From Amyelois transitella (taxonomy: Eukaryota; Arthropoda; Insecta; Lepidoptera; Pyralidae): a stretch of 64,000 nt of DNA. The translations under genes and the position numbers were made by a program. Position 1 is the stretch's first letter, and every line of letters begins with the position of its first letter. The notes under the pieces were generated by a model that was not told where the DNA came from, did no database searches, and saw nothing but the letters and a program-made list of their open reading frames with translations. Of this stretch, positions 2,173 to 59,448 are shown piece after piece. Where the stretch lies: assembly GCF_032362555.1 (NCBI RefSeq), contig NC_083531.1:4402001-4466000 (forward strand), given 5' to 3'.

Positions 2173-5100
2173 TCACGATTCATCCACCAACTGAACACTC
2201 CACGATTCCGTACCGTTATCACCCAACACATACTCCTCTCCGTCTTGTCCAATTATCCTTATCCCCTGTTCCGTAATCACTTGCTCCGTAACAACCTGCT
2301 CGGTCTCCAATGGTTCGTACACAGCACTTGTATCAATCTCCACTTTGACATCGTTCTTCATCAGCCCTATGAGTTCCACGTATTTCTGTTTCTGCTCATC
2401 GGTCATATTCCCCGGATTGTGATTCTTCAAATGGTAATTCAGATGGCTGCTCTGCTTGAACCGCTTCTGACAAATACCACATTGGAACGGTGAGACGTTG
2501 GTGTGAGTTCTCATGTGCTGTTTCAAATGTATCGATTGGCAGAAGGTCTTCGCGCATATCACACAGCGGTACGGCTTCACTTTGGTGTGGATACGGAGAT
2601 GCTGGTCAAGACCCGACTTCTGGGTGAATGCTTTGGTGCAGTACGTGCATTCGAAGGGACGATCACCCGTGTGCATGCGCATGTGTTGTTGAACACCGCC
2701 CTGGAATTGATAAATTTGTTGTTTGTTTGTTTGTTTGTAAATTCTTTATTGTACATAACAAATTATAGGTAATACATAAAAAACATTAAAAAAAATTGTA
2801 TCAGTTTAACAACATTAATTAAGGAGTAATTCAAACACTACTGTTTTTCCTATTTTTATATCAAATACGATAAATAAATCGACATTATGGGAATTCAAAG
2901 ATTCAAAAAAAATCTACATACATATAATCACGTTTATTTGCCTTGCCGGGGTAGACAAGAGCCAACAGTCTTGAAAAGACTGAATGGCCACGTTCAGCTG
3001 ATTGGCTTAATGATAGAATTGAGATTCAAATAGTGACAGGTTGCTAGCTCATCGCCTACAAGAATCCCACATTCATAAGCCTAACCCTTAGTCACCTTTT
3101 ACTACATCCATGGGCAATTTACGGAGTGTACTTATTCTTAAAATGCCGTGAACCACACGGCACCTATACATTATATGAACATGTACTTAAATAGTAAGTA
3201 AATAGAGTATAAATTCACCTGCTGTGTGAACCTCTTGTGGCAAACGCTGCATTGAAACGGCTTCAGCTTCACATGAGCGGTGGACGTGTGGTCGGCCAGC
3301 TCGCGGTTGCTGTTGAAACCGGCGCCGCACACCTGTCGGAGAACGCAAACTGTATCAATATCGACATAGTAGTGTATATTGTATAATATAATATAAGTTT
3401 ATTGCTCAGTTGTATGACGTTTTTGTGTCATTTCCACGCTGGTGTGGTAGCAAAAGTAAAAAATGTGCTTCTAATGATTACCATCCCAGCACAGTTTGTA
3501 ATATTCAATCAAGATAAAGGCTTTAGAGCGTCGGTGGTCAAATTGCGGGGTTGACAGAGCCACCACTCTGCACACCTGGCAGCGCAGCCCCGGGCGGCAC
3601 TATATGTAGACACACTCACATCACACACAAAAGGCGCGCTGAGCTCCCCGACCAGCGGCCGCTCGCACACCTGGCAGCGCAGCACTATATGTAGACACAC
3701 TCACGTCACACACAAAAGGCGCGCTGAGCTCCCCGACCAGCGGCCGCTCGCACACCTGGCAGCGCAGCACTATATGTAGACACACTCACATCACACACAA
3801 AAGGCGCACTGAGCTCCCCGACCAGCGGCCGCTCGCACACCTGGCAGCGCAGCACTATATGTAGACACACTCACGTCACACACAAAAGGCGCGCTGAGCT
3901 CCCCGACCAGCGGCCGCTCGCACACCTGGCAGCGCAGCACTATATGTAGACACACTCACGTCACACACAAAAGGCGCGCTGAGCTCCCCGACCAGCGGCC
4001 GCTCGCACACCTGGCAGCGCAGCACTATATGTAGACACACTCATATCGTCCACATTCCATTCTAAGTTAAATTAATATTGTGAAGTTGACCTTGTTCAAG
4101 AAAATGCTGCAGTGCAGTTTGTTACCGCTTCCTCTGCACTGGCACTTCTGAAGCGGCAGAAAACTTAGTTATTAAGTAATTCATTTGACGTCAACCAATG
4201 TTGTTAAACCGTACGTTTTGACAATTATTAAGCGATATATAGCATCCTATAGTAATGAATAAAAAATTTGAATTTGAATATATATATATATACAAACTCA
4301 CGTCACACACAAAAGGCGCGCTGAGCTCCCCGACCAGCGGCCGCTCGCACACCTGGCAGCGCAGCACTATATGTAGACACACTCACGTCACACACAAAAG
4401 GCGCGCTGAGCTCCCCGACCAGCGGCCGCTCGCACACCTGGCAGCGCAGCACTATATGTAGACACACTCACGTCACACACAAAAGGCGCGCTGAGCTCCC
4501 CGACCAGCGGCCGCTCGCACACCTGGCAGCGCAGCACTATATGTAGACACACTCACGTCACACACAAAAGGCGCGCTGAGCTCCCCGACCAGCGGCCGCT
4601 CGCACACCTGGCAGCGCAGCACTATATGTAGACACACTCACGTCACACACAAAAGGCGCGCTGAGCTCCCCGACCAGCGGCCGCTCGCACACCTGGCAGC
4701 GCAGCACTATATGTAGACACACTCACGTCACACACAAAAGGCGCGCTGAGCTCCCCGACCAGCGGCCGCTCGCACACCTGGCAGCGCAGCACTATATGTA
4801 GACACACTCACGTCACACACAAAAGGCGCGCTGAGCTCCCCGACCAGCGGCCGCTCGCACACCTGGCAGCGCAGCACTATATGTAGACACACTCACGTCA
4901 CACACAAAAGGCGCGCTGAGCTCCCCGACCAGCGGCCGCTCGCACACCTGGCAGCGCAGCACTATATGTAGACACACTCACATCACACACAAAAGGCGCG
5001 CTGAGCTCCCCGACCAGCGGCCGCTCGCACACCTGGCAGCGCAGCACTATATGTAGACACACTCACATCACACACAAAAGGCGCGCTGAGCTCCCCGACC

Positions 5101-8100
5101 AGCGGCCGCTCGCACACCTGGCAGCGCAGCACTATATGTAGACACACTCACGTCACACACAAAAGGCGCGCTGAGCTCCCCGACCAGCGGCCGCTCGCAC
5201 ACCTGGCAGCGCAGCACTATATGTAGACACACTCACGTCACACACAAAAGGCGCGCTGAGCTCCCCGACCAGCGGCCGCTCGCACACCTGGCAGCGCAGC
5301 ACTATATGTAGACACACTCACGTCACACACAAAAGGCGCGCTGAGCTCCCCGACCAGCGGCCGCTCGCACACCTGACAGCGCAGCACTATATGTAGACAC
5401 ACTCATATCGTCCACATTCCATTCTAAGTTAAATTAATATTGTGAAGTTGACCTTGTTCAAGAAAATGCTGCAGTGCAGTTTGTTACCGCTTCCTCTGCA
5501 CTGGCACTTCTGAAGCGGCAGTAAACTTATTAAGTAATTCATTTGACGTCAACCAATGTTGTTAAACCGTACGTTTTGACAATTATTAAGCGATATATAG
5601 CATCCTATAGTAATGAATAAAAAATTTGAATTTGAATATATATATATACAAACTCACGTCACACACAAAAGGCGCGCTGAGCTCCCCGACCAGCGGCCGC
5701 TCGCACACCTGGCAGCGCAGCCCCCGGCGGCGCGCCGCGTGCTCGTCGCGGAAGTGCGCCGAGTAGGCGCAGCACGAGAAGAATATCTGATGGCACGTGC
5801 CATCCGCCACCAGCGTCGAAGGCTGAAGGCACTCGAACGGGCCGCTGCGATACAAATACCATAGATACATACATATAATCAGGTCTATATCCCTTGCTAC
5901 AGGTAGTTCAGCTAGTTCTACATTCATTCATGTTTTTTAATGTAGAAAATGTGCATTCGTCCGTGATTTAGATTTAAGAGATCTATATTTGAACATTGAC
6001 GTCCGATGAAAATGCTGCAGTGTAGTTTGTTCCGCCGCTTCTTCTACACATACGCTTTGGAAGCGGTAGTAGTTATAATTAGATTTAAGTGATGTGACGT
6101 CAATATGTGATACTTTGTATCCAATTATGAAATCTATTCTATTCTATCGTTAAGCCAAACAGGTGAGCGTGGCTTATCAGTCTTTTTAAGACTACTGACT
6201 CTGTCTACCCGCAAGGGATATAGACTTTTATGTATGTGTATGTATGTATGTAGATTTAGAAGTAACAAAATTGAGACTAACGTTGGGATATACATACATA
6301 CATATCACGTCTATATAAACTGATGCCATTCATCAATGAGAACGCCTATTTATGACTTAAAGGTACCAAAAAGTCGTATATACAGATCGAAAGAGATATT
6401 TTTTTCTTATATTTAATTTATTTTATTATCTTACTGGTAAAAAAGGTGTAAATCCTGATGTCAGATAAGGGCATTTTAGTTATACCACGGCAGTGTGTAT
6501 GTATGTATGTATGTAAATTAAGAAGTAACAAAAGACTTACGTGATAACTGTAGGCTCCGGCTCCTTCTTAGCCCTCGGCGGTTTCTCCTCCCGCCTCCTC
6601 TTAGGCGGCGCCGGCGCATCCTCAGACTTTATGATGATGTAGCTCACGTCCTCGGAAGCCAAGCTCATCAGGTTCTGAGGGCCCATGTACGAGAGCAGCT
6701 TCTCGGTGTTCAGCCGTATGGCTTTATGCTTGTCGGATTCTAGTTGATGTTGTATCTGCTTTTTTGTCTGCCGAGTGGAAAGTATTTTTGTTCATTAGGT
6801 GATTTTAAAATTTCGTGTAGCATTATACTGTTTAGTCCCTTTTGCCGTGTGGTTCCCGGCACCAAAACAAAAAGAATAGGACCATCTCTTTCCAACAGTC
6901 ATGAAAAGACTGATAGGCCACGTTGAACTGTTTAGCTTATTGACAGAATTAAGATACAAATAGTGACAGATTGCTAACCAATGAAAAAATGAATATAACC
7001 ACTCCATCACATTCCCATGGATATCGTTAAAGGCGACTAAGGGATAGGCTTATAAACTTGGGATTCTTCTATTAGGAATATCTGACTAATAGTCAACTCA
7101 CAAGGCACAAGCAAAGCATAGCAAAGCCATTTTTGCATTATTGCCATCCCAATTCAGGGCAAAACCTCGGCCTTTTTGGATGTAAATTGTCATATTTTAA
7201 TTTGTATTTTTTACCAAAGAAACATTTTTTCTTTCTCTCTTAACAAATATTATGCCATATCAAGTAGACCCCCTGAATGGAGGGCATTAGGCCAGGTTAT
7301 GAACACACTCACGGTTTTATCCAAGATCTGCAGCCAGGCCTCCTCCTCTCCGCCGAGGTAGACCGCAATGTGCTCCATTCGGACGTGGTTCCGGAGCGCT
7401 ACGACGCTCGCGAAGCCCTTCCCGCACACCTTGCATGCCACCTGGTCATCGTCATCGGGAATTTCTAGCTCCTTCTGCAAATTAATGATATTAACTGATA
7501 ATATATATATTTATTAATGTTGAATCTTTCCCATGGATGTCATAACAGGCAACTAAATAAATAAATATATACGTGACAAATTACACAGATTGAGTAAGCC
7601 TCGAAGTAAGTTCGAGACTTGTGTTACGAGATACTAACTCATCAACGATACTATATCTTATAATAGATACTTATGTATATAGATAAACATCCAAGACCTA
7701 GGCCAATCAGAAAAAGTTCTTTTCTCATTGTGCCCTGACCGGAATTCGAACCCGGGACCTCTGGTGTCGCAGACAAGGGTACCACCGCTGCGCCACATAG
7801 GCCATTTAACTAAGGGATACACTAATACACATGGGATTCTTCTTTTAGGCGATGGGCTAACAACCTGTCACTATTTGAATTAGAATTCCATCATTCGGCC
7901 ATACAATATGGCCGTTCGGTCTTTTCAAGATGAATGTGGATGAAGCAAAAGAATACAATAGGCCATGACTATCAGTCTTTTCAAGACTGTTGGCTCTGTC
8001 TACCCTGCAAGGAATATAGACGTGATTATATGTATGAATGTATATATTGGTTGTATGAACTGCTATGAAAACACACTTTGATATACTCCTAGATATATTT

Positions 8101-8760: not shown

Positions 8761-10760
8761 TGTTTTTTTTTTAATTAAAAAAAAGAAATCGAAAAAGAAA
8801 AAATTAAAAACATAGTGATTTCAAAAAGATGTCAAATTTTATTTGACATTTACGTACCTGCTATTTTAGATTTCACAGAACAAAATTCCTCAGACAATTC
8901 CGCATTAACCCAACAATAATCACGTACAAAATAAAGGAAATATGTATGTTACACAGGCGTGGCTTCTAAATAGCTTGGGCCGCCATTTTGAAATGTGATC
9001 ATTCGTTGAATCATGACATGCATGGTATGGTGATGTGCTTTGAGTACTCGGTACTTGTAGATGGGGATATAAAAAAAAAACTAATTTTACATTAATTCCG
9101 ACTACACTATTGATCCAGTTGTTATATCTCAGAAAATTAAATATTTATTGTAATAATAAAATAGTTACTTATGGCACACAAATGTTTTATATCCTTGCCT
9201 CACGGTAAGACTAAAAAAAATTCACGTCACCGTCAATCACAGCTGTCAACTGTAAAACGGTCAGTCAGTGTTGCCATCTTAGCGCTTTTGGGTCTACATC
9301 TATCGCCTTGTCCAGTCAAAATAGACCAAAAAATACTGACCGTTTGCGAAAAAAATGCAAAAAAACTGATTTTTTACTGATTTATAGCAAAAAAGGTCAA
9401 ATAAAAGTTGTATATCATCAGAATTCTTATTTAAGCAACTGTTAAATACCCAGTAAGAAGAGGAAGAAAGCGAAGAATTTATAGTTGAAGTTGAATTTGA
9501 CGAGTATCAATCGGATGAAAATTTCTTTCAATATAATTTTTTTGACCTTTGACAACGAATAACTTTTTTAGCAAGCATGGGATCGACGGGGACTTTTGAC
9601 ATATTATTTGTATTCATATATTAGAGGTTTGTACCAATTTTGAGCTCTATGCGAATTGTTGCAACCTGACATGTCTATTTTGACTGGACTATAGGTTTGA
9701 ATAGGTACTCAAAAATATTAGAGATTTTTTTAAGGATTCGAGTATAATGTTTTTACTAACTGACATAGGTATAATCAAATAGATAACAAATCTGATGTTT
9801 CCTCGTAGTCCCAGGATAAGTCAAGGGCGGCGTTGCGTTAATACTATAAAGAAAAAGCACAATTTTGTATTTTTAAATGTTTTTTATTAAATTTGTAGTA
9901 GTACAAGTAACAAAATTAAAAATTTTGAAATACCCACGTCATAATGGTTTAAATGTACCAACCTATCTACTCTAAACGATGAAATTGGTTTCATAAAGAA
10001 ATGTCTACTAAAGCGCCCCCTGATGAATTATTGACGTAAAACCTATCTAACAATATGTAGCAATTTAATCCAAACCCATCACTGAAAACCGCATTAAAAT
10101 CGGACTAGTGGTTTTGAAGATAAATGGAACGAAAGTTTCGTCGACGCGCGGGCCCCCGCCACGCCGCCGTCATGTCGCACCCCACCTCACCGCTCTCGCC
10201 CCGCATCCGTTTCGAGTTCTGTTATTAGTTTGCGGAACCAGAAGCAGAAACGGAACTGAAAAAACATGCGGAACTTCTGCAGATGCAGAAGCGGAAGCAG
10301 AGTTCTGTTGCAACACTAAGTGATAGCATGTCTTTCCTAGATGCTGGTTCGTCAATGTCTTGGTAGATACTAAGAAATTTCCTTTATTTTTTTTTATTTC
10401 AAAACTCCCAAGTTCAATAAATCAATTTCTATTCATTGCTTTGTTTTATTAATTCTTTGAAAACTTTACCATTCTCTCTTTCCCTCTCATCTTTGTGTAA
10501 CCCGTTCCCGCCTTGTTTCCACTCCACTTTGATTCGGAGCGTGGTTCGACGCGCAATAAGGTTGATTCCTTGTTAAATCAATAAAGCTGTTGCTATGAAT
10601 CAAACAAAACTTATATAATTCCCTAGTTTCCTGCATCTCTCTCAACTTTGTTCCCAGTTGTACACACAGCGTCTCTTTTACAATTATCTTTTTACTTCGT
10701 TCGGTATTCTTAGTTTATCAATAGGCTCGGATATTTTCTTCGGCGTATCCCCAAACAAAA
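8761..10760. other. Intergenic region between divergent genes 1 and 2
   Basis: AT-rich, no supported coding exon. 10000-10100 resembles a repeat phrase (AAAACCGCATTAAAATCGG) also present near 40610 and 40755. 10145-10320 is GC-rich with GAAGC-type short tandem repeats. The last ~60 bases before the ATG at 10761 are the likely 5' UTR of the dynein light chain gene. Confidence 0.4.
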
Positions 10761-26808: not shown

Positions 26809-29800
26809 ATGGTACACATATCATCCCTCTGCAGAATATGCCTGACTTCAGACGTGAATATGCACGTTATAGCCCAAACGCCGCTCCAAGAAGTTTACGA
26901 GAAACTTACCAATGTTCCAGTAAGCATTCTTTTCCTCATAAACTTGCGATTCTTCTTTTAGGCGATGGGCAATTTCATCATAAATCCATACAATTGAAAG
27001 TAAACTTTCAGCCTTTTCGGAACTGTTGGCTGTGTCTACTTCGCAATATACGCATATATACGTTAGGTATATAGACGTGATTGTATGTATGTCTATAAAC
27101 TTGTATATCTTTTCAGTTGCACACAGAAATGAGGCCTATAGCGACTTGCTACATCTGTTTCGCGAGATTGAAAAACACGCAAAAGTTGATACAGACCTCG
27201 CTAAGAGCCGAGAAATTACTCAGAGGCATCTTGGAAAGCAATCAGGTAATTTTACTCAAAATTGTTACACTCTATAACATGCAAATAAAGTTATTATTTG
27301 TTTCTCCGCTTGGATTTCACGGGTCTATACACCCCGGATTTTTGAGAAGCTTGCGTGGGGATATAAATCCTACATGTAGAGGCCCTTTGCAGAAGTTGAT
27401 GTTGTGTTGTTCTCCTGCCAAAACCTGTTCCCGGGCATATCAATAGATGATATGTCCATGAACAGGTCTCGGCAGGAGGTGGAGCTATTACAATATAAGG
27501 AAAAGAATGATGGGTTATGGAGTTGAAGTTTGGATGGATTTAAACTGGGCTATTGCTGGAGAAGTTCGGACACCTGCCATAATCATGAATATGTGACTTA
27601 TTAGTTTATTATTATGTTTTATTATACCTATGTATGTATGAATAATATAATTCATAGTCTTGACTATATGTATGTGTGTATGTTTTATTATACATATAAA
27701 TAATATTATTATTACAGCCCACCACAACAGAGTTTCTAAATGTTATCCAATCAAAGAACAACCTGACAATACACATTGCACCTGTTGAATGTATAACTGT
27801 CGCTGAAGAACAAATAACTAATAGTGAAGAAGTCATAACAGCTGTTGAAGAAGGCGGTCCAGTGAAAGTTGAACAGGAAACGGTGACCGTGAAGACTGAA
27901 AGAACAGCAGGTGCGTAAAATATTTTACAACTTTGAAATGTTGAATGAAAATTGAAAAAAAGAAAATTGTAATTAAAAATTTTGAATTAGAATCTTCTGT
28001 ATGTTTCTTATGTATGGTGATGAATAAAGATGAATGATGAAAATAAAATAAGTAAATATTGCTCTATAGCAATAAATTCATTGAGTTGTGACCATTTTTG
28101 TATTGCTGCAACTCGCACCCTTATTAATGTGTACTCCATATGAAAATGTAAATTTGTGTAGCAAATCAAATTAATGATCTATTTATCTATGCAAATTAAA
28201 ACATTAATATCTAATTAAAATAAGTAATAAGAGAGAGTAAGAAGAGGTCAAGAGTACCCAAAACCGCCAAGCGTACATGAAGAGAGTTATGAATGTGGAT
28301 GAAGTGAAGGCAGTATGCAGAGATCGTGGAAAGAGGTAGTCTCTGCCTACCCCTCCGGAAAAGAGGCGTGATTTTATGTATGTATATGTATGTAAAATAA
28401 ATAATTGATTTCAGAAACATCGGAACCAAATGGAATTCCACTGTCAGATTTAGACAATGGCGGTTTTACTGACTCCGATGATGACGTGCCACTGAAGAAT
28501 ATCAGTATGAAACAAGACAGAAAGGGAAGTTTGAAGAGAACGGACGGGAAAGGCCGGAAATATAAAACAGGTAATGGAAATAAAAAAAGTAAATATTCTT
28601 ATTTTAAGACATATGTATTTAAACGCTCTTAAAAGTAGAAATATATACAGGGTGACTTTTAATTCAACTGCATAAATTTAACTGTTAAGTGTACTCATTT
28701 AAAGGATATTTAAAAACGTTAAAAGAAGATTATCGGTTCATTTTTTCAGAAAGTACGAAAAAAAATTAAAGTATCAAAATCCACGATCCTAAATACGTAA
28801 TATCACCCCGGCCGGCGAAAAAGCGACACGTAAGATTCTGAGGTCAACGACACAATTCATTCAGCTGAGCGATCTCGACAACTCTGTACTTTATTTTTCA
28901 GACATTTATTTACATGTTTAGTTTTAATTTCTTTTTGTACTATTGGTCTTTATAAAGCGTGTGACGTAGTTTTTGAGGGTTTTTTAAATGTGAAAATGAT
29001 GACGTTTAATTTAAATAAAAATAGGCTCAAACGGCTCAGAAGCATGGGTATAGTCTATGTTTAAAAGGATGCAGTTGTTTTAAATGTCACCCTGTATGTA
29101 TATTATATCCAAGTCCATAAATTTATCCGTATCTCAAATCTTACAGCATTCAAATTGAACGCGAAAGAGATTATACTTACGAAAGAGGAACAATTGAACG
29201 AAATGAATGCGCGTGCGTCGTCGTCCAATTACATGGACTCGCCGTACAAATGCGTTTTGTGCTACAAGGGTTTCGTCGACGACCAGGCGTATAGCAACCA
29301 CAGGGAGAAACACGCCGAGGTCAGACTTTTGTATAATAATCACTACATAGTATAAAACAAAGTCGCTATTTTAGTCTGTTTGTCTGTATGCTTAGATCTT
29401 TAAAATTACGCAACGGATTTTGATGCGGTTTTTTGTAACAGGTAGAGGTAAAGGTTTTTATGTTTAATTTTTTCCGAATTTTGCACCCGTGCGAAGCCGG
29501 GGCGGGTCGCTTGTTTTATAATAATTTGCATGCTATGACCAGTAGGAAATATGTTTTTTTTTAAACCTTTTGTAAACCCTAGTCAAAAGCAAATAAATAT
29601 TCTATTCTATTCAGTGTGGGCGACCTTGTTTATGGACGCCATAGCAACGGTTGCCATAGCAACGGTTGCCATGGTTATGTTTAGTTAGGAAAAAATGTGT
29701 TATTTTTATCTATAAGTTGTTATTGTTAAGTATTGTTATTTATAAAGCTGTAGAGTTTGTTTGTTTGAACGTGCTACTCTCAGGAACTACTGGTTCGAAT

Positions 29801-32800
29801 TGAAAAATTATTTTTGTGTTGAATAGACCATTTATCGAGGAAGGCTTTAGGTTAATAATATAATAACATCACGCTGCAACTATTAAACTTTAAATTAAAG
29901 AAAGGAATTTACATTCACTAGAAGGTACACATGATGTATGTATAAATACATAAATTGAAGATCAAGAACAAAAACAATCATCATATAAGTACATAGAGAA
30001 ATAGACGATGTCTATAAATAGTTCTTATTTTATTTCAGTGTCGTATTCTGTGCTGTGATTGGCTGATGGCGTATGACGTCAGCGATCAATGTCACCACAT
30101 TATGTATGCAGTGTTCGAAATTCGATTCTCATTTTCAGAGCAGCGGCGATCACGAGTGCGACATATGTCATATGCGATATCGCACCGCGCGCCACCTCAG
30201 AACTCATTCTGCGACGTCGCACTTCAGACAGTACTTGTGTAACGTATGCGAGCACAGATCTCATACCAAGTGAGTGTCTTTATTGTTAGTTCAACCGCTA
30301 TTGTATAGATGGCGTTGTGAATGATTATAGAAACAATGGTGTACATACTATGCATACTTATAGGTAAATTTGTACATACCTACATATCATCACGTCTATA
30401 TCCTTTGCGGGGTAGACAGAGCCAAGAGAGTCTTGAAAAGACTGAAAGGTTCAGTTGTTTGGTTTAATGATAGAATTGAGATTCAAATAGTGACTGGTTG
30501 CTACGAGTACCTACGTCGCCTGAAAGAAGTGCTAAATAAAAGACATGTGTGGTATCACGGAGCATTTATTGCATTGCCGCACAAGCAAGTTATATCTAGA
30601 TACCTTCAAATACAATATCAACTTATGTCGGTACATACTTGTCAAGAAGAATGACAAGTTTATAAGCTTATCCCTTAGTCGCATTTTACGACATCCACCG
30701 GGAAAGAGATGGAGTGATCCTATAATTTTTTGTATAGTATATCTTTTTAATTCTTTTAATGGCAACACTAGGTACTGTATTTTTAAGAAGTCATGTGTTT
30801 TTTTTTTTTTTCAGAAACCAAGCGAGGGAACATCAGAAATGGCACGAGGGTTACACTTACGAGTGTGAATTGTGCGGGCAGAAGTTCAGGTATTACATAC
30901 ATACATATAGTCACGTCTATATCCCGCGCGGGGTAGACTGAGCTAACAGTCTTGAAAATACTGATAGGCCACGTTCAGCTGTTTGGCTTAATGATAGAAT
31001 TGACATTCAAATAGTGACAGGTTGCTAGTCCATCGCCTAAAAAAGAATCCCAAGTTTGTAAGCCTATCCCTTAGTCGCCTTTTACGACAGCCATGGGAAA
31101 GTGATGGAGTGGTCCTATTCTTTTTTGTATTGGTGCCGGGAACCACAAGGTACACATATAGTCACTTCTATATCCCTCGCGGGGTAGACTGAGCTAATAG
31201 TCTTGAAAATACTGACAGGCCACGTTCAGCTGTTCGGCTTAATGATAGAATTGAGATTCAAATAGTGACAGGTTGCTAGTCCATCGCCTAAAAAAGAATC
31301 CCAAGTTTATAAGCCTATCCCTTAGTCGCCTTTTACGACATCCATGGGAAAGAGACGTAGTGGTCCTATTTTTTTTTTCCATTTGCGCCGGGTCCACACG
31401 GCTTCCGACCGTATATCTATACTAACATTATAAAGCTGAAGAGTTTGATTGTTTGTTTGTTTGAACGCGCTAATCTCAGGAACTAGTGGTTCGAATTGAA
31501 AAATTATTACTATATAACATCACGCTGCAACTGGAGCCAAGGAGGAATGGAGAATGTGAAAAAAAAAAACGGGGATAATAATTCATCCTTGAGGGCTTCA
31601 ATAATGACCAGAACAATTATTCCACGCGGACGAAGTCGCGGGCACAGCTGGTATATCTATATTATATTTTTTTAATTTGTGATTAACATGTGCCGTGTGG
31701 TTCCCGGCACCAATAAAAAAAAAGAATAGGACCAGTCCATCTCGTTCCCATGGATGTCGTAAATGGCGACTAAGGGATAGGCTTATAAACTTGGGATTCT
31801 ACTTTTAGGCGATGGGCTAGCAACCTGTCACTATTTGAATCTCAATTCCATCATAAAGCCAAACAGCTGAACGTGGCCTATCAGCCTTTTCAAGACTATT
31901 GGCTCTGTCACCCCGCAAGAGATATAGACGTGATTATGTGTGTGTGTGTGTGATTAACATTACAGAAAATCAACATCCTATCTGACTCACATGAGGAAAT
32001 GTCACCCAACACAACACGTTTGCGAATTGTGCGGCGAGAGTTTTGTCGGTAAACACGGTCTGCTGATGCATAAGAGCAAAACGCACAGACATACTCAACA
32101 GGTGAGTTATAAAACAACCATTAATTTACTAATTTGTTACAATGATTTTATTGCGACAGGTTTATACAGGGTTTTACAATTTTAATTCAACTGCATAAAT
32201 TTAATTGTTAAGTGTACTCATCTAAAGGATAATTTTGTAAGCCTATCCCTTAGTCGCCTTTTATGGCATCCATGGGAAAGAGATGGGAGTTAGGACCACT
32301 CCATCTCTTTCCCATGGATGATTCTTATTTGTATTGGTGCCGGGAACCACACGGCACTTTTGTTATTCATACATAGAATAGAAAAGATTTATTTTCAAAA
32401 TTGTATACAAGGTATCACTTATTGACACGTCACATCACTTAAATCTAATTATAACTTCTGCCGCTTCCGAAGCGCGTGTGTAAAAGAAGCGACGGAACGT
32501 CTCGTCTCGTTCCCATGGATGTCGTAAGTGGCGACTGAGGGATAGGCTTTTAAATCGAGATTTTACTTTTAGGCGATGGGCTAGCGACCTGTCGCTATTT
32601 GAATCTCAATTCTATTAGTATGCCAAACAGCTGAACATAGCCTATCAGTCTTTTCAAGACTGTTGGCTCTGTCTACCCCGCATGGGACATAGATGTGATT
32701 ATATGTCAAGACACAGACAAGCGCACCACCGCTGCGCCACAGAGGCCTGATAATTAAATAATAAAAAATGTTTTCAGAATCCAACAATACCACAAAAGAA

Positions 32801-35800
32801 TTCTGACACTTACTGTTCTGAATGTCAAATACAATTTTTGACAAGTGACGCGTGGAAGAGACATATGCTCAACTCTTTCAAGCACAAGATGAAGAACAAG
32901 GACGGGTATATATTTGAAATTGTTATTGTTTTTCTTTTACTCTTTTTCTCAGTGACAGATTTGTACAATGGTTGAATTTTTATACTTTTGAGGTAATTTT
33001 ATACAGCACGTTTGAACGGGAGATCGTGGCAAGTGGGAAGAGGTAGTCTCTACCTACCCCACCGGGAAAGAGGCGTGATTTTATGTATGTATGTTTGAAC
33101 GGGGTACTTAAATGGTAGGCGCTTAAAAATTTGCCTTTTAAATAATGAATTAAGCGTCACCTACCAAAAAGCAACGAATTTATCTCGGTAAAAGTTGCAG
33201 ATCTCGTGACATTTGCCAATAAACTAATATTATTGCGTGGTTGCTGCGTTTAATTCGTCGCTTTTTGTAAGTGGCGTTTAAATTGTTGCTTTTTGAAGGC
33301 GGTGCTAATTTCGTCAAAGAAAGAAAGAAAAATCGTTTATTTGGTACATTAACAAAATATAAATTGGAATTAGTGAATTGTTAAATTACTGTGTCGCTGA
33401 ATTGTTGCGGGTGAAAGCTAGTAAATAGGTACATAGAATAAAACATGTTGGTACACTATTGTAATTTTGACACCTTAAATGCATTTATGCATTATGTCAT
33501 TGTAGGTACACGTTTTGGCAAATAAGTTATCTTATGTCTTGTCTGATGTCTAATGTCCCACGTCCCATGTCCCATGTCCCTCGTCCCATATCCCACGTCC
33601 CATGTCCCTCGTCCCATATCCCACGTCCTATGGCCCAATTCTCATGTCCCACGTCCCATGTCCCATGCTTCATGTTCCATGGCCCAAGTCTAATGTTCCA
33701 CGTCCCAAGTCTCAAGTCCCACGTCCCGTGTACCATGCCTCATGTCCCGCGTCCCATGTCCCATGACCCAAGTCTCAAGTCTAATGTCCCACGTCCCAAG
33801 TCTAATGTCCCATCACCCAAGTCTAAAAGTCCCACGTCCCATTACTCATGTCCCATGACCCAAGTTTCATGTCCTACGTTCCATGATTCAAGTCTCGTCC
33901 CTCGTCCCACGTCCCATGCCTCATGTCCCACGTCCCTTATCCCATGCCTCATGTCCCACGTCCCTTATCCCATGCCTCATATCCCTCGTCCCATGTCTCA
34001 TGGCCCTGGTCCCACGTTGGCTGTCTCACATCTCACCGCGCATGACCGCAATATGGCAGGTCGCACTGCGCGATATGCGGCGGCGGCGTGCCGGGCCCGC
34101 TGGCCGAGCACCTGCGCGGGCACGCGCGCGCGCTGCGCCCGCCGCGTGCGCGCGCGCCGCCGCCCGCCGCCCGGCTGCCGTGTCAACAGGTGCGTGCCCA
34201 TATATAGTCACGTCTTTATTTATTAACTAGCTGTGCTGTGCCCGCGACTTTGTCCGCGTAAAATAGTTATTTTGGGCATCATTGATCTTTTTGTAGTATT
34301 GGTATGTATTACAGCGTGTGACGTAGTTTTTGAGGGTTTTTTAAATGTGAAAATGATGACGTTTAATTTAAATAAAAATAGGCTCAAACGGCTCAGAAAC
34401 ATGGGTATAGTCTATGTTTAAAAGGCTGCAGTTGTTTAAAATATCACCCTGTATAGCCTAAAGCCTTCCTCAATAAATGGTGTATTCAACATAAAAAGAA
34501 TTTTTCAATTCGAACCAGTAGTTGCTGAGATTAGCGCGTTCAAACTAACAAACTCTTAAGCTTTATAACATTAGAATAGATGTAACTTGAATTTATCTAT
34601 AAAAATTTAAAATCACGTGAATGTAAGATTATTTATTAGATTGCCTGCAAAAGCGAATTTTATGAATAAAATTATTTCAATTTTGAATGTTTTTTTTACA
34701 GTGTAATGGCACGTTTTCGAGCAAATCTTTGCTGATTACTCATACAAAACGCGCTCACCTCGGCGTGAAGTACAATAGAAATGTCGTGTGTGAAATATGC
34801 GGAAAGCATTGCACTGTGAGTATATAAAGCATAGCTGCGCCAGCGACTTCGTCCGCGTGGAAAAGTTCATTTTGAGCATCATTGAAGCCCTCAAGGATGA
34901 ATAATTTTGCTTGCTTGCTCTTTAAAATTGCAGCGTGATGTTATATAGCCTAAAGCTTTCTCTATAAATGGTCTATTCAAAGCATAAAGAATTTTTCAAT
35001 TCGAACCAGTATATACCAAATTCACGCGGGTGAAATGCTGATAATAAATAAATATATACATATATACGGGACAAATTACACAGATTGAGTTAGCCTCGAA
35101 GTAAGTTCGAGACTTGTGTTACGACATACCAACTCAACGATACTATATTTTACAAAATACTTAGATAGATAAACATCCAAGACCCAGACCAATCAGAGAA
35201 AGTACGTTTCTCATCATGCCCTGACTAGGATTCGAACCCGGGACCTCCGGTGTCACAGACAAGTGTATTACCGCTGCGCCACTGAGGCCGCCGAGAATAT
35301 TTTTTTTTGGCGTGACAACGTCTTATAATGCGACTGAGCCGGCTGCACGCACGAAAAAACATGACTCATGCGGCGTTACCTCGCTCTGAGGCGTTCCATG
35401 TAAGGCTGAAGTGCAAGCGAGAGCGCGGAACGAGCGACAAAGAGGCACAATCGGCCTTCGCGTTCGGCAGCGTATACCTCCTTCTCTATATACCTACAAA
35501 CAAATCTATTAAACAAATGAAATTAATGTTTTATTGATTTTTTTTATTAATTTTTTTTATTTTCTTTCCCATGGATGTCGTAAAAGGCGACTAAGCGATA
35601 GGCTTACAAACTTGGGATTATTTTTTTAGGCGATGGGCTAGCAACCTGTCACTATTTGAATCTCAATTCTATCATTAAGCCATATAGCTGAGCTGAGCGT
35701 GGCCTATCAGTCTTTTCAAGACTGTTGGCTCTATCTACCCCACAAGGGATATTGACGTGACCATATGTATGAAATTAAAATTTTCTTTTGAAAAATGTAG

Positions 35801-38800
35801 TGTCCGACCGAAGGTCTATTTTTGGCCGAAGCCGAAGCCGAAGCCGATTAATCGGCTATCGCCACAACCTTCGGCCGAAGCCGAAGCCGAAGCCGAAGGT
35901 TTATATTCTCTCAGCACTCAGTAATTAATTTTGTTCAATATTGTCTACAAGCTACAATTAATATTAAAATCATTTCAAAACCTCAATATTGAAGGTTTAT
36001 ATATTGACTGTTTCATATAGAAGTTGATGATATATCAAAGAGGTGGTTGGTTTAGAGATAAACTAGCTGTTGCCCGCGACTTCGTCCGCGTAAATTTCGA
36101 GTTGAATTTTAATCATACAGTCAGATACAGACAGACAAAAATGTAAAAAAAAAATTCTCTATCCGTTTCAGTCAAAATATTAAATGTACAGAAAAAATAT
36201 TTTTACCGTTTTATTATAAATAAATAAATAAATAAAATAAAATATGTTTATTTCAGACACAGTCCAGAGTTGTTAGTAAATCTTATGTACTAATGTTAGT
36301 AATAATTTGACACGTTTTTATTTAAGCTCGAATGCTGTCGAGTCCAGTGACATTATATGTAGTATTTTGATTTTCAGTTTTTTTACATAAAATACTCAAA
36401 CAATACAAAAAAAATATATTTTTAATAATAAAAAATATCTTGTAATTGTTGGGATTCGAACTTGGACCGCCAACTTCACAGTCTCACGGGCTAACCACTG
36501 GACCATCGAAGCCGTTGCGTTGGTGTCGAAATTAAAGTAGACTACATACATATGGTCACGTCTTTATCCCTTGCGGGGTAGACAGAGCCAACAGACTTGA
36601 AAAGACTGAATGGCCACGTTCAGCTATTTGACTTAATGATAGAATTGAGATTCAAAAAGTGATAGGTTGCTCGCCCATCGCCTAAAAAAGAATCCCAAGT
36701 TTGTAAGCCCATCCCTTAGTCGCCTTTCACTTATATTTATATGTTATAGGTATAATGTCGTCGTATAATGATAAATGACTTTGAATTTTTAATTTCGCTG
36801 GCATACTGATGCCTTGAGTTCATTCAAATGTCGATAACTTTTTTTTTGTGAACCGATTTTGATGAAACAAACTTTTAATGTTATTCTGAGTTAAAACAAA
36901 GCAATTGGTGAAAGTTTGAAGTAAATCGGTTTAGTACTTTCGGAGATAATCGTGATCATACATACAGACAGACAGACAAGAAATTTAAAAAATATATTTT
37001 TGCTTTCTATTATTCATTCTAAGTGTCCCTCTATCCATTTCAGTCGAAAATACTAAATGTACAGACAAAATATTTTTACTGTTTTATTATATGTATAGAT
37101 AAAAGTTTGTGATTTACCTACTGGTAAAAATAATGATTTGATTTCTTACAAAAACACTCGTTTAAATACACGTACGGACTTGTTTTGATGCATGCAATCA
37201 GCAATGTGATATTTTGACAGTGACTCCCCGCCGCCTCATGACTTTCGTAACAGTTCGTTCAATCTCGACGGTCGCTCGGACCTTCGGCGAAACCTTCGGC
37301 TTCGGCCGGATTTTGGGCCGAAGCCGAATGTTTCGCCGAAGGTGGATTTTTTGGCCGAAGGTGGCCGAAGCCGAAGCCGAAGCCGAAGCTTCGGTCGGAC
37401 ACTAGAAAAATGCTACCATTCTACTAGTATTTTCTTAAGACATTGTCACGTTCAACTATCGTCAGTGAAACGACTTTATAGACAACAGATAAACGATTTT
37501 TGTATTTTTTTTTAAACAGTCCAACGCCTCCCTCAAATACCATCAGCGCTCGCACACCGGCGAGAAGCCGTACTCGTGCGCCGTGTGCAACAAGAGGTTC
37601 TCGAGCAAGAACCACCTGAACATACACACGCGGACGCACACGGGCGACCGGCCGTACGTGTGTGCGACGTGCGGCAAGCGGTTCACGCAGAAACCGGCGC
37701 TCAATAGGCATCAGAGGGTAAGGGGATACATATACATACATACATATGGGACATGAGACATGGGACGTGGGACTTGGGACATGAGGCATGGGACATTAGA
37801 CTTGGGACATGGGACATGAGGCATGGGACATGAGGCATGGGACGTGGGACATTAGACTTGGGACGTGGGACATTAGACTTGGGACGTGGGACATTAGACT
37901 TGGGACATGGGACATTAGACTTGGGACATGGGACGTGAGGCATGGGACGTGGGATATGAGGCATGGGACTTAGGACATTAGACTTGGGACATGGGACGTG
38001 AGCATGGGACATGAGACATGGGACTTGGGACGTGGGACATTAGACTTGGGACATGAGGCATGGGACGTGGGACATTAGACTTGGGACGTGGGACATTAGA
38101 CTTGGGACAATTAGACTTGGGACATGGGACATTAGACTTGGGACATGGGACGTGAGGCATGGGACGTGGGACATGAGCCATGGGACATAGGACATGAGAC
38201 ATGGGACTTGGGACATGAGGCATGGGACGTGGGACATGAGACTTGGGACATGGGACACGTACACGTGCGCCGTGTGCAACAAGAGGTTCTCGAGCAAGAA
38301 CCACCTGAACATACACACGCGGACGCACACGGGCGACCGGCCGTACGTGTGTGCGACGTGCGGCAAGCGGTTCACGCAGAAACCGGCGCTCAATAGGCAT
38401 CAGAGGGTAAGGGGATACATAATATATATCATGGGACATGAGACATGGGACGTGGGATTTGGGACATGAGGCATGGGACGTGGGACATTAGACTCGGGAC
38501 ATGGGACATGAGGCATGGGACGTGGGACATTAGACTTGGGACATGGGACATTAGACTTGGGACATGGGACATGTGACTTGGGACGTGGGACATTAGACTT
38601 GGGACATGGGACGTGAGCATGGGACATGAGACATGGGACGTGGGACATGAGCCATGGGACGTGGGACATGAGGCATGGGACGTGGGACATGAGACATGGG
38701 ACTTGGGACATTAAACGTGGGACATGGGACACGAACACGTGCGCCGTGTGCAACAAGAGGTTCTCGAGCAAGAACCACCTGAACATGCACACGCGGACGC

Positions 38801-41111
38801 ACACGGGCGACCGGCCGTACGCGTGTGCGACGTGCGGCAAGCGGTTCACACAGAAACCGGCGCTCAATAGGCATCAGAGGGTAAGGGGATACATAATATA
38901 TATCATGGGACATGAGACATGGGACGTGGGACTTGGGACATGAGGCATGGGACGTGGGACATTAGACTCGGGACATGGGACATGAGGCATGAGACGTGGG
39001 ACATTAGACTTGGGACGTGGGACATTAGACTTGGGACATGGGACATTAGACTTGGGACATGGGACGTGAGGCATGGGACGTAGGACATGAACCATGGGAC
39101 GTGGGACATGAGGCATGGGACGTGGGACATGAGGCATGGGACGTGGGACATTAGACTTGGGACATGGGACACGTACGCGTGCGCCGTGTGCAACAAGAGG
39201 TTCTCGAGCAAGAACCACCTGAACATACACACGCGGACGCACACGGGCGACCGGCCGTACGTGTGTGCGACGTGCGGCAAGCGGTTCACGCAGAAACCGG
39301 CGCTCAATAGGCATCAGAGGGTAAGGGGATACATATACATACATATATTTATATATATATATATATCATGGGACGTGGGACTTGGGACATGGGACGTGGG
39401 ACATTAGACTTGGGACGTGGGACATTAGACTTGGGACATGAGACATGGGACGTGGAACATTAGACTTGGGACATGGGACATGAGGCATGGGACGTGGGAC
39501 ATTAGACTTGGGACATGGGACATGAGACATGGGACTTGGGACATGAGGCATTAGACATGAGGCATGGGACGTGGGACATGAGGCATGGGACGTGGGACAT
39601 GAGGCATGGGACGTGGGACATGAGGCATGGGACGTGGGACATGGGACATGAGACATGGGACTTGGGACATGAGGCATGGGACGTGGGACATTAGACTTGG
39701 GACATGGGACGTGGGACATTAGACTTGGGACATGGGACATTAGACTACGGACATGGGACGTGAGGCATGGGACGTGGGACATGAGCCATGGGACGTGGGA
39801 CATGAGGCATGGGACGTGGGACATGAGACATGGGACTTGGGACATTACACGTGGGACACGAACACGTGCGCCGTGTGCAACAAGAGGTTCTCGAGCAAGA
39901 ACCACCTGAACATACACACGCGGACGCACACGGGCGACCGGCCGTACGTGTGTGCGACGTGCGGCAAGCGGTTCACGCAGAAACCGGCGCTCAATAGGCA
40001 TCAGAGGGTAAGGGGATACATAATATATATCATGGGAAATGAGACATGGGACGTGGGATTTGGGACATGAGGCATGGGACGTGGGACATTAGACTTGGGA
40101 CATGAGGCATGGGACGTGGGACATTAGACTTGGGACATGGGACATGAGACTTGGGACATGAGGCACGGGACGGTGTGTGTGACGTGCGGCAAGCGGTTCA
40201 CACAGAAACCGGCGCTCAGTAGGCATCAGAGGGTAAGGGCATACATATATGTATGTATATATTCATCCACGTTCATAACTCTCTTCATGCAAGGCACGCC
40301 TATATCTATTGCGGGGTAGACAGAGCCGACAGAGGAATGAAAATGAAAAAAAAAAATGTTGAATCCAAAGTTTATTACCTTATCCCTTAATCCACTTTTA
40401 CTATCTCCACGGGAAGCGAAGCCGCGCTGTTCAGCATAGGGGCTTGCACTACATAAATATTGCTCTAATTCCATTAGTCGCTTTTTACGACATCCATGGG
40501 AAAGAGTAACAGAGTAGTATTTAACGTATCCACCACCAAGCGATATTCTCCTTTTATGAAGTCGGTTAGATTTCTAAAACCTTCTCCTAAGTGTAACTTC
40601 CTGAAAACTGCATTAAAATCGGTTGAGCGAAACGCGAGGACAAACAAACATACAGGTCAAACTGAGGATCAACCTTTTTTTTTTCCCTAAAGTCGGTTAA
40701 ATTACTGTTTTTTACTATTTTTCTAAAACCTTCTCCTTAGGGAACTGCTGAACACCGCATCAAAATCGGTTGAGCAAAACGCGAGGACAAACAAACAAAC
40801 AAGCATACACGTCAAACTGAGGATAAACTTCTTTTTTCTAAAGTCTGTTAATATACTGTAATTTTTTATTCTTTTTTAAGTCTGTTAAAATACTGTTTTT
40901 TTATTCTTTTTTTTTTTTTTAATTCTTATACTTTTTTTTTTAAATTCTTTTACAGATACACACCGGAGTGAAACCCTACGAATGTCAGTTCTGCTCCAAG
41001 TGTTTCAGCCAATCGGATTCGTTGAATGTTCACGTAAAAGCTGTACATTTAAAAATGCCCATAATCAGAAAAAAGGGGGGGGTGAAAGCTGAAGATCGTC
41101 AAGATGTGTAG
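26809..41111 (+). CDS. ZAD-type C2H2 zinc-finger protein, 13 exons, 609 aa, 12 fingers
   Basis: Probable transcription factor of the arthropod ZAD family. Exons: 26809-26919, 27117-27245, 27718-27910, 28415-28570, 29147-29319, 30139-30269, 30815-30889, 31966-32101, 32778-32905, 34060-34189, 34702-34815, 37520-37717, 40956-41111; phases are consistent throughout. Exons 1-2 encode the ZAD with paired knuckles CRICL and CYICF, a dimerisation domain. Exons 3-4 are an acidic linker (FTDSDDDVP) and a Lys/Arg stretch. Twelve fingers follow from CVLCYKGF to CQFCSKCF; several are split by introns. Only the last fingers have TGEKP-type linkers. The donor after exon 5 (GAG/GTCAGA) is weak. Exon 10 is very GC-rich (Pro/Ala/Arg linker). 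Intron 12 holds extra exon-12 copies; intron 9 an inverted minisatellite. Copies could be alternative exons, but they lack an evident acceptor. Confidence 0.9.
26935..27090 (+). mobile_element. Degraded family A copy in intron 1
   Basis: It retains CATAAACTTGCGATTCTTCTT and the CAGCCTTTTCGGAACTGTTG block. Confidence 0.5.
28240..28390 (+). mobile_element. LINE 3' end (family H)
   Basis: From CAAGAGTACCC through GAGAGTTATGAATGTGGATG and GATCGTGGAAAGAGG to GGCGTGATTTTATGTATG. In one frame it reads [14 protein letters not shown]-like, the C-terminus of a non-LTR retrotransposon ORF. Confidence 0.6.
28649..29095. mobile_element. TIR DNA transposon (MITE-like), ~450 bp
   Basis: Inverted ends CAGGGTGAC at the left and GTCACCCTG at the right extend imperfectly to AACTGCA/TGCAGTTG, flanked by TA on both sides. 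A partial copy of its right half interrupts a Helitron-like element at 34283-34450, and its left 70 bp recur at 32165-32235. The TA flank suggests a Tc1/mariner-like mechanism. Confidence 0.65.
29338..29890 (+). mobile_element. Helitron-like elements in intron 5
   Basis: 29338-29518 is a family F copy ending GGGGCGGGTCGCTTG. 29735-29890 is a truncated family E copy (5' half). Between them CCATAGCAACGGTTG is repeated two to three times at 29637-29672. Confidence 0.55.
30375..30745 (-). mobile_element. Diverged family A copy with internal insertion
   Basis: The tail side (30375-30505) and head side (30640-30735) are separated by ~130 bp of unrelated sequence. Confidence 0.5.
30893..31405 (-). 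mobile_element. Two tandem family A copies
   Basis: Copies at 30893-31150 and 31152-31405 share diagnostic variants (GGTAGACTGAGCTAA and GAAAATACTGA), so they arose by local tandem duplication. The first starts immediately after the donor of exon 7. Confidence 0.7.
31418..31651 (+). mobile_element. Helitron-like element (family E)
   Basis: From ATACTAACATTATAAAGCTG to GTCGCGGGCACAGCTGG. Confidence 0.65.
31691..31950 (+). mobile_element. Family A repeat
   Basis: Full plus-orientation copy that ends in (GT)n only 15 bp before exon 8, so the intron's polypyrimidine region partly derives from its tail. Confidence 0.65.
32165..32748. mobile_element. Repeat cluster in intron 8
   Basis: 32165-32235 is the left end of the 28649-type TIR element. 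32235-32357 is a family A head (minus). 32380-32495 is a family D subtype-2 tail (minus). 32497-32706 is a family A copy (plus). 32707-32748 is a tRNA-like family B SINE head fragment (minus). Confidence 0.6.
33020..33092 (+). mobile_element. LINE 3' end (family H), short
   Basis: GAGATCGTGGCAAGTGGGAA to GGCGTGATTTTATGTATG. Confidence 0.55.
33541..34020 (-). repeat. Heptad minisatellite, C-rich on plus strand
   Basis: Imperfect repeats of the seven-base unit (GTCCCAT/C), for example CCCATGTCCCACGTCCC, run up to 40 bp before exon 10. This is the reverse complement of the array at 37745-40171. Every seven bases carry GGG on the minus strand, a regular G-quadruplex pattern. Confidence 0.9.
34228..34578 (-). 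mobile_element. Helitron-like element (family E) disrupted by a TIR element
   Basis: The family E sequence runs from CTAGCTGTGCTGTGCCCGCG to GGGCATCATTGA, is interrupted at 34283-34450 by the right half of the 28649-type TIR element (ending TCACCCTGTAT), and resumes at AGCCTAAAGCC. Confidence 0.65.
34828..35292 (-). mobile_element. Truncated family E copy and a tRNA-derived SINE
   Basis: 34828-35015 has the GCGACTTCGTCCGCGTGGA end. 35050-35292 is a family B SINE with minus-strand tRNA-like head (GGGTTCGAATCC). Confidence 0.65.
35565..35772 (+). mobile_element. Family A repeat, head missing
   Basis: From TCCCATGGATGTCGTAAAAG to GACGTGACCATATGTATG. Confidence 0.65.
35798..37404. mobile_element. 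~1.6-kb TIR element with GCCGAA hexamer arms
   Basis: The ends are perfect 16-bp inverted repeats TAGTGTCCGACCGAAG / CTTCGGTCGGACACTA at 35798-35813 and 37389-37404. Next to each end lie tandem GCCGAA hexamers with spaced inverted forms. The interior holds no coding region; it contains a Helitron-like piece (36064-36240), a tRNA-like SINE head (36425-36516, minus) and a family A copy (36541-36728, minus). Superfamily not recognised. Confidence 0.7.
38258..38406 (+). pseudogene. Exon 12 copy 1 (two C2H2 fingers, with donor)
   Basis: Nearly identical to 37569-37717. It encodes the complete CAVC and CATC fingers and keeps the AGG/GTAAGG donor and following GGGATACAT. The first 49 bases of exon 12 and its acceptor are missing; the minisatellite joins directly. 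No stop codon interrupts it and the frame is open into the minisatellite. Confidence 0.85.
38731..38880 (+). pseudogene. Exon 12 copy 2
   Basis: Same extent as copy 1. Differs by a few bases, including ATGCAC for ATACAC (Ile to Met in the first finger), GCGTGT for GTGTGT (Val to Ala) and a silent ACACAG. Donor intact, acceptor absent. Confidence 0.85.
39172..39320 (+). pseudogene. Exon 12 copy 3
   Basis: Nearly identical to exon 12 over 149 bp, donor GTAAGG intact, acceptor absent; CGTACGCGTGC at the start changes Ser to Ala. Confidence 0.85.
39859..40007 (+). pseudogene. Exon 12 copy 4
   Basis: Nearly identical to exon 12 over 149 bp with an intact donor. The start reads CGAACACG, as in copy 2. 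Confidence 0.85.
40173..40232 (+). pseudogene. Exon 12 copy 5, second finger only
   Basis: Begins in GTGTGTGTGACGTGCGG and keeps only the CxxC...H part of the second finger, with one change (CTCAGTAGG, Asn to Ser) and the GTAAGG donor. Confidence 0.8.
40290..40850. mobile_element. Family A copy and a tandem duplicated repeat in intron 12
   Basis: 40290-40505 is a degraded family A copy (minus). From 40550 a phrase AAAATCGGTTGAGC...CGAGGACAAACAAAC occurs twice about 140 bp apart, so the segment is locally duplicated. T-rich sequence follows up to exon 13. Confidence 0.5.
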
Positions 41112-57461: not shown

Positions 57462-59448
57462 TCAGTTGGGGTGTATCAGACTAGATTGGTACGAATTTCC
57501 TTCTACGGGTGAATGGGGACTCTTACGCTCGTCAGGGCTTTCAGAGCGGGACCTATAGGGACTCTTTGGCTCGTTAGGGCTTCCAGAGCGGGACCTATCC
57601 GGACTCTCAGGCTCGTTAGGACTCCCAGAGCGGGACCTATAGGAAATCTTAATCTCGGTAGGACTCCCAGAGCGGGACCTATAGGGACTCTTAATCTCGA
57701 CAGGGCTTCCAAAGCGGGACCTAGCGAGACTTTCAGGCTCGTTAGGGCTCCCAGAGTGGGACCTATAGGGAATCTTAATGTCGGTAGGACTCCCAGAGCG
57801 GGACCTAGCGAGACATTCAGGCTCGTTAGGACTCCCAGAGCGGGACCTATAGGGACTCTGGGGCTCAAAAACATTGCCAGGGCTTAGCGGACCGGAGTTT
57901 TCATTAGAGCCGCCTTCGTTGACGCCTTGTGTTGGATAATTCCTCTGTCTGGTGATATAGTCACTCACAATCATATTCGTACAATTCAACCTCTTCGCTC
58001 GCACCACAACTTTAACCTGTTCTTTCGCATTCTCCTTTTTCTCGTGTATTCTTTTCCGATGACTTTTCATGTTAGTTATACGGCTGAAAGTCTTCTTGCA
58101 AACGGGACACTCGTACGGCCTCTCACCCGTGTGTATGCGCAAATGTTTAGTCAAAACGTTCATATATTTAAACTTGCGCTGGCATATGCCGCACGTGAAA
58201 CGTTTCTCGTCCGAATGCTTGACTAAATGCATTTTCAATTCGCTTGTCCTTTTAAATCTCGCTTCGCACATCGTACAACCGTAGGGTTTCTCGCCCGTAT
58301 GCGTCCTCAAATGTATGTTCATGTAGTTTTTATCCTTGAACCTGTTCTCGCATATCGGACACTGATACGGCCGCTCATCGGAGTGAACGCTCATGTGAGT
58401 CTGCAGATACTTGTCCGTTGTGAATCCCCTCTCGCACACGGCACAAACGTACGGTTTCTCACCTGTATGACCACGGAAGTGTATCTTCAAATCGAACTTT
58501 CTCTTGAATCTGAAATGACATATCTCACACTCGAACGGCCTAATGTCCGAGTGGGACTTCAGGTGGATCTTGTAATCGGCCACATTGTTGAAGTGCTCCT
58601 GACAAATGTCGCACTCGTGATGTTTCTCGGTGTGGGTTTCGAGATGCCTCTTCAGGTGAGGTATTTGATTGAACCGCCTCTGGCAAATGTGACAAGCGTA
58701 GGGTTTCTCACCTGTGTGGGTGCGAGCGTGGCTTTTCAAGTGATGCTTCTGTGTGAATCGGCGATGGCAAATGTTACATTCATGAGGTCTGTTGCCGGTT
58801 TGCATACGAATGTCGATTTTGGACATTGGCTTCGGCTTGGGGACATCCTGCTGGGGATCCTCGATGTAGGCAGGTTCAATGTTCAGGTCGTGATGGCTGA
58901 CCAGCTCGCCTTCGTCTTCGTATGCGCCTGGAATCAATGAATCTATCGATCAATAGCTGTAATTCAGGGCTTTAATAGAGGACAGAGACGAGAGTCTTGA
59001 AAACTGACTGATACGCCACGTTCAGCTTTTTGGCTTAATGATAGAGTTGAGATTCATATAGTGACAGGTTGCTAGCCCATCGCCTAGAAAAGAACCCCAA
59101 GTTTGTAAGCCTATCTCTTAGTCGCCTTTTACTACATCCATGTATGAAGACCAATTTCATAAGCATATCCTTAACTCGACTTTTACTACATCCACGGGAA
59201 AGAGATGAGAGTAGAGTCCTATACTTTCCATAGGTGCCGGGAACAACACGGCACATGGTATGTAGTCCTATACTCTTTTCCCCATAAGTGCCGGGAACCA
59301 CACGGCACATGTATGTCGTACCTTCAGGAATGTCCGGCTCCACCTCAATCTCCATTACAACTCGGCTCACTTCCAGGGGATCATCTTCCGGATAGTCGAG
59401 CGGCTCACACTTCACATTCACGTCCAGATAACGAGGTAGCTCTGCCAT
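57462..59448 (-). CDS. C2H2 zinc-finger protein with RS/SP repeat tail, ~530 aa
   Basis: Probable transcription factor. Minus-strand exons are 59322-59448 (from a candidate ATG with CACACATGG context) and 57462-58927; the junction GAAG/GC joins in phase 1. Upstream sequence to an acceptor at 59463-59465 is open (ELDSH), so an earlier start in another exon is possible. The N-terminus is acidic (DYPEDDPLEVSRVVMEIEVE). Nine fingers follow, from CNICHRRF to CPVCKKTF, with classic TGEKP linkers after several and unusual HSDIRP/HSDEKR linkers after others. A basic stretch (HRKRIHEKKENAKEQ) follows the last finger. The C-terminus has eight 14-residue repeats of the YRSRSGSPNEPESP type (57530-57870), likely phosphorylated SP/RS motifs. 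No orthologue recognised. Confidence 0.88.
57530..57870 (-). repeat. 42-bp coding minisatellite (eight 14-residue RSRSGSP units)
   Basis: Inside the gene 8 last exon. Units alternate between an NEPES-type and an (T/V)(D/E)IK-type ending, so the array looks like four 28-residue pairs. Length is a multiple of three throughout and no unit breaks the frame. Confidence 0.9.
58975..59310 (-). mobile_element. Family A copies filling the gene 8 intron
   Basis: One copy plus a second degraded head; GTGCCGGGAACCACACGGCAC ends the array ten bases from the donor at 59316-59321. Confidence 0.6.

Follow-up and report, generated by a model that had tools for sequence, protein, structure and literature searches.

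Zinc-finger genes of this genome appear to undergo a recurrent and probably neutral local duplication of exon ends, of which the array of exon copies in intron 12 of the host gene would be a young, large product (probability roughly 0.7). The host array lies in a 64-kb window, the whole stretch of DNA analyzed here, which comes from a single assembly (33 contigs, 327 Mb). It is more interesting than a single oddity because the pattern recurs at other loci.

A hand-built splice model joins 13 exons of the host gene, all on the plus strand, into a single intact frame of 609 codons. Exons 1 to 5 are at 26809-26919, 27117-27245, 27718-27910, 28415-28570, and 29147-29319, and exons 6 to 9 at 30139-30269, 30815-30889, 31966-32101, and 32778-32905, followed by exon 10 (34060-34189), exon 11 (34702-34815), exon 12, the parent of the array copies (37520-37717, with AGG at the junction and then GTAAGG), and exon 13 (40956-41111), which ends in a stop codon at 41109-41111. 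Judged from its predicted protein, this is likely a ZAD gene: the C-terminal C2H2 array expected of a ZAD-ZNF gene is present (Pfam zf-C2H2, 97.6 bits), and Pfam zf-AD aligns over profile positions 1-73 of 75 (E 2.9e-5) with 24.7 bits, below the curated cut-off of 28. GCCGAA-rich, partly inverted repeats also precede exon 12 within intron 11, at 35790-35900 and 37277-37393.

The array that the original prediction placed behind exon 12 is present and comprises four copies of the last 149 nt of the exon and a 60-nt stub, all on the plus strand. Intron 12 opens with its GTAAGG donor and a first minisatellite spacer (spacer 0, 37718-38257), followed by copy 1 of the 3′ part of exon 12 (38258-38406), which retains the donor and is without an acceptor, spacer 1 (38407-38731), copy 2 (38732-38880), spacer 2 (38881-39171), copy 3 (39172-39320), spacer 3 (39321-39858), which is near spacer 0 in length, copy 4 (39859-40007), a short spacer 4 (40008-40172), and the stub with its donor (40173-40232). 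Past the stub intron 12 has no minisatellite, and the repeat is thus located between exon copies. The shared GTAAGG donor was likewise described correctly: it occurs in exon 12, the four copies and the stub (6/6), five times as GTAAGGGG and in the stub as GTAAGGGC. Copies 1, 3, and 4 are identical to exon 12 over a 143-nt core (37575-37717), copy 2 has three differences in this core (I>M, V>A, and a silent T), and the stub has three in 60 nt (A>V, N>S, and the silent T shared with copy 2). A genome search with copy 1 returned seven matches, the seventh being 76% over 91 bp on another contig; the copies are not due to chance, because six of the seven fall at the array locus.

Block 37569-38566 matches block 39172-40160 at 90% and therefore points to a multi-unit duplication. 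The view of the array as a recent product of duplication and exchange is supported. The exon cores are more alike (0 differences in 143) than spacers 0 and 3 (44 mismatches in 507 aligned positions), a gap that may reflect conversion. The almost equal lengths of spacers 0 and 3 and the 90% likeness of the blocks could also be read as an assembly artefact, such as two alleles placed head to tail. We regard this as extremely improbable, given that 90% is low for alleles, that a length of 2.7 kb is small against that of long reads (if these were the method), and that similar structures are found at other loci.

Acceptor scoring, trained on 17 known acceptors in two genes of the window, identified no acceptor-like AG among the 127 of the array (37740-40232), the best scoring −3.3 versus 2.3 for the lowest known acceptor, that of exon 10. 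The acceptor of exon 13 is the best of intron 12 at 14.1, or 11.3 when excluded from training, and the score is limited in that three further AGs, between the array and exon 13, also exceed the weakest known acceptor (6.9, 4.9, and 4.8). Because the array has no acceptor-like AG the copies are predicted to be splice-silent, as the original prediction had it for copies missing their acceptors; its proposed rescue by minisatellite TTAG acceptors is not supported, none of the 127 AGs reaching the weakest of the 17. With no acceptor-like site in the array, exon 12 should still be spliced normally to exon 13, leaving the copies free to decay.

The copies had also been said to carry few non-synonymous changes. 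In fact, four of the five distinct core changes are non-synonymous (seven of eight with the junction codons), as expected without selection, for which the fraction is 0.72-0.74. This does not bear out protein-level constraint on the copies, and no excess of silent change was detected among the five distinct core changes, few events that give low power. Open frames do run through the copies for 63-108 codons, but their claimed continuation into the minisatellite is slight, the upstream spacer contributing merely 32-117 nt. Stop codons in the frames of spacer 0 number 14/171, 7/170, and 6/170 on the plus strand and 6/171, 5/170, and 1/170 on the minus strand, close to chance in most frames. We give next to no credence to the copies being functional extra exons spliced in via minisatellite acceptors: open frames of 92-108 codons extend across copies 1-4 and the donors are intact, but the array lacks acceptor-like AGs and silent change is not in excess. 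The suggested nursery for new zinc-finger pairs finds no positive support here, while the recurrent copying of exon edges in zinc-finger genes is real.

Silent copies might instead form a conversion reservoir that feeds variants into the expressed exon 12 and allows quick change of finger specificity. Exon 12 is the first unit of the array, its core and those of the copies are homogenized relative to the spacers, and the I>M residue of copy 2 is at what we take to be helix position +6, which we count in favor of this role. Exon 12 has, however, no copy-specific core variant, contact positions are not enriched among the amino-acid changes (one of four), and copies at other loci are decaying, making such a reservoir very unlikely.

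The array spacers are built of 7-bp minisatellite units, and the same unit family is present in inverted orientation in intron 9 (33553-34014, minus strand), ending 45 bp before exon 10. An exact genome scan with a 20-mer pattern established that the array minisatellite is private to the host gene: all 49 matches in 327 Mb fall within it, 45 of them in forward orientation in the array and the other 4 in reverse within intron 9 (33548-33798), ruling out a dispersed family. As a control, the reversed 20-mer pattern had 18 genome matches, and such patterns can thus occur elsewhere. A looser scan (up to three mismatches) gave 164 matches, and among the 100 matches listed 97 were in the array and 3 were singles on other contigs. 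G-quadruplex formation was also considered as a cause and is a weak candidate, with one canonical motif in the array and three in intron 9 (minus strand).

The intron 9 minisatellite aligns in inverted orientation with spacer 0 at 75.7% over 506 bp. The order of units in intron 9 matched that of spacers 0, 1, and 2 with scores reached by only 2, 1, and 0 of 200 token shuffles; for spacers 3 and 4, 22 and 76 of 200 shuffles did so. These comparisons support a unit order common to intron 9 and spacers 0-2, not to spacers 3 and 4. With respect to end-to-end copying of the intron 9 array, other registers of the alignment score nearly as well; the edges have no unique alignment, and no exact 11-mer is common to both flanks of the intron 9 array. 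Origin of the array minisatellite from intron 9 is therefore partly supported. Serial template switching by FoSTeS/MMBIR is described as able to produce both a segmental duplication and an inverted insertion of neighboring sequence (PMC2583991). With respect to such an inverted templated insertion, the host gene has the inverted homology, a partly common unit order, and edges that are not uniquely aligned; FoSTeS/MMBIR is known from human disease loci, whereas here we reason from end products.

The two minisatellites may alternatively act in cis, by pairing in the pre-mRNA and looping out exons 10-12, which would favor back-splicing or skipping. They form the top-scoring inverted pair of the gene (339 bits), their duplex energy is −684 versus −303 on average across ten mononucleotide shuffles, and the acceptor of exon 10 is the weakest of the 17 scored. 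In zip-2 of C. elegans, removing reverse-complementary intron pairs nearly abolished circular and skipped transcripts (PMC8330042). Transposon-derived inverted pairs of the host gene are nearly equal, however, at 332 and 269 bits with 89% identity, and the loop would be ~3.7 kb; we consider a splicing effect of this kind quite improbable.

A second array, which like the inverted intron 9 minisatellite and the copies at other loci goes beyond the original prediction, is present in the window at 3597-5405 on the minus strand, behind an exon of another zinc-finger gene (5658-5844, minus strand). Its 85-bp unit combines ~64 bp from the end of the zinc-finger exon with 21 bp of intron that begin with the donor GTGAGT. 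Besides the parent, an intact 31-bp core is found in 18 copies, of which 13 are identical to the parent in their exon part, and all 21 matches of a genome search fall inside the array locus. The intron segment behind the parent exon occurs a second time at ~4050-4300, where it interrupts the array.

We surveyed zinc-finger genes only, in 14 places, namely the window and thirteen 10-kb pieces (L042-L054), by comparing finger-bearing open frames with 6 kb on each side and then reading the cases by eye. The pieces span 11 of 55 zf-AD matches, from 10 neighborhoods. We claim no rate because the places were not random, having been picked by zf-AD match or, for L050, L052, and L054, as neighbors of earlier pieces. 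Copied exon edges were identified for nine zinc-finger exons in seven of the 14 places (two each in the window and L045, one each in L042, L049, L050, L052, and L053). None were seen in L043, L044, L046, L047, L048, and L051, and L054 has no finger-bearing frame. A tandem-repeat scan of eight pieces and a local-copy search in three of these had suggested that zf-AD loci elsewhere are free of such arrays, which the survey showed to be wrong. The count excludes transposon hits (L042, L043, and the window at ~7.5-12.9, 30.4-36.6, and 36.5-47.2 kb), inverted-minisatellite hits, finger-to-finger matches within one frame (L044, and the window at 58.2-58.7 kb), two paralogous fingers of L049 that are 4.9 kb apart, a small number of short hits (E above 1e-6), and a 148-bp × 4 array in L042. 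The latter, at 8933-9522 of that piece (C27:4490362-4490951), begins 6 nt inside the intron that follows a zinc-finger exon and contains no exon sequence. An antisense control (E 1e-6) produced two hits to finger-bearing parts, both of them transposon.

The cases range from nearly identical to decayed. L053 has three 99-bp units that span the donor with 9 bp of exon each (98-100% identity). The first L045 exon (9023-9157) is copied at 9394-9528 with its donor (97.8%), a 24-bp stub follows at 9694-9717, and a TCATCAATC-type repeat lies between them. In L052 the copied stretch (954-1028) closes a last exon and includes the stop codon; its copy is at 1324-1398 (97.3%), again with a repeat between, and in L050 the segment 6710-6590 (minus strand) has a copy behind a transposon at 6257-6150 (87.6%). 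Pieces of 78-92% identity follow in L042, L049, and the second L045 exon. The exon end 3913-3998 of L042 has copies at 4229-4316 (77.8%), 4360-4396, and 4136-4175, associated with a AAGGTCACAAAGGTCAGGG-type repeat; L049 has decayed pieces at 1949-1913 and 1856-1802 (minus strand) without a repeat; and the second L045 exon, ending at ~2890, has a copy with an internal loss and a donor at 3845-3929, behind a long repeat of 15-bp units. Some old copies, in L049 and one in L042, have lost the donor. The mixture of fresh and decayed copies suggests a process repeated over time, and the structures can be arranged as successive stages of it: intact exon, fresh copies, an intervening repeat, multiplication of the units, and decay to remnants.

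All nine exons have a downstream copy, and one of the nine (L050) has an additional upstream copy of its acceptor edge, 6769-6735 being repeated at 6999-6965 (97%, minus strand). This sole upstream case seen (6964-7014, minus strand) includes ~10 bp of exon, and CT-rich sequence separates it from the real acceptor. Donors are thus not a strict requirement of the process, given this acceptor-side copy and the L052 copy, which derives from a last exon and includes the stop codon. Upstream duplications would set an orphan acceptor before the exon and be likelier to disturb splicing. The downstream excess is explicable by tolerance, because the first copy stays complete and the second is silent. 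A mutational hot spot, with breaks or slippage favoring the 3′ ends of exons themselves rather than survival by selection, would fit the ratio of nine downstream edges to one upstream (two-sided sign test, 0.02; 7 versus 1 without the window, 0.07). We think it unlikely, as a harmless position accounts for the same bias, the sample is small and partly chosen, and one case is on the acceptor side.

A minisatellite separates parent and copy at five of the nine exons and is absent between them at the other four. The exact repeat patterns of L045 (15-bp unit), L042, and L052 have 28, 1, and 3 genome matches, respectively, at their own loci only. With the host gene, four of four minisatellites tested genome-wide are thus private to their locus, the single match of L042 being a thin test, and a private repeat flanked by direct duplication is found at five of nine exons, four of the repeats having been tested genome-wide. 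In L045 and L042, pieces resembling repeat units also follow the exon copies, as if the repeats had grown from intron sequence.

We infer that neutral duplication of this kind would begin with a local duplication from inside an exon into the next intron, by which the first copy and its donor stay intact and an acceptor-less copy is placed behind the parent exon. A short repeat between the two copies would then expand into a minisatellite, which in the host gene would have a common origin with the inverted one of intron 9, template switching between the introns being likely. Finally, unequal exchange would multiply the exon-plus-spacer unit. The repeat may follow duplication or drive it. A stronger, tentative proposal, which we hold to be possible though not probable, is that zinc-finger genes keep shedding exon ends downstream, coupled to the birth of private minisatellites: duplication of an exon end would make the junction where a new repeat expands, and the repeat would drive further copying. 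If true, this would be a standing source of new minisatellites and of raw material for finger turnover, in which the expressed exon could exchange sequence with its silent copies. If valid in other genomes, the pattern would join fast zinc-finger gene evolution, minisatellite birth, and the one-sided survival of exon pieces; copied exon edges are directly countable in any annotated genome.

Known systems resemble the host array in part. Tandem exon duplication usually involves a whole exon with both splice sites. It has in common with the host array that exon sequence is duplicated into the next intron, but here donors are present in 6/6 units and acceptor-like AGs in 0/127, and the core changes (4/5 non-synonymous, few events with low power) do not indicate that copies are kept by protein selection. 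In the slippage model of their birth, minisatellites are flanked by short direct repeats. The private minisatellites between two direct repeats are similar, with the difference that the flanking repeats are exon edges of at least 24 bp with a donor or stop codon. The LPA kringle IV type 2 VNTR likewise has tandem exon-plus-intron units within one gene (PMC11462820), though its units are complete exons encoding protein domains and those of the host array contain the 3′ part of one exon only. A literature search for a precise precedent of the host array led, in the text available, to an intra-exon duplication; the word minisatellite is absent from the accessible part of a ZAD-ZNF paper (PMC7655104), and a viral-contig scan gave 0 matches. 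In PRDM9 a zinc-finger minisatellite lies in a coding exon and is translated, whereas the repeat units of the host array are placed by the splice model within intron 12, as acceptor-less copies with noncoding minisatellite between them. A separate 42-bp/126-bp tandem repeat of the window, at 57516-57866 on the minus strand, is located in a long C2H2 frame (57462-58949) and encodes SRSGSP-type segments.
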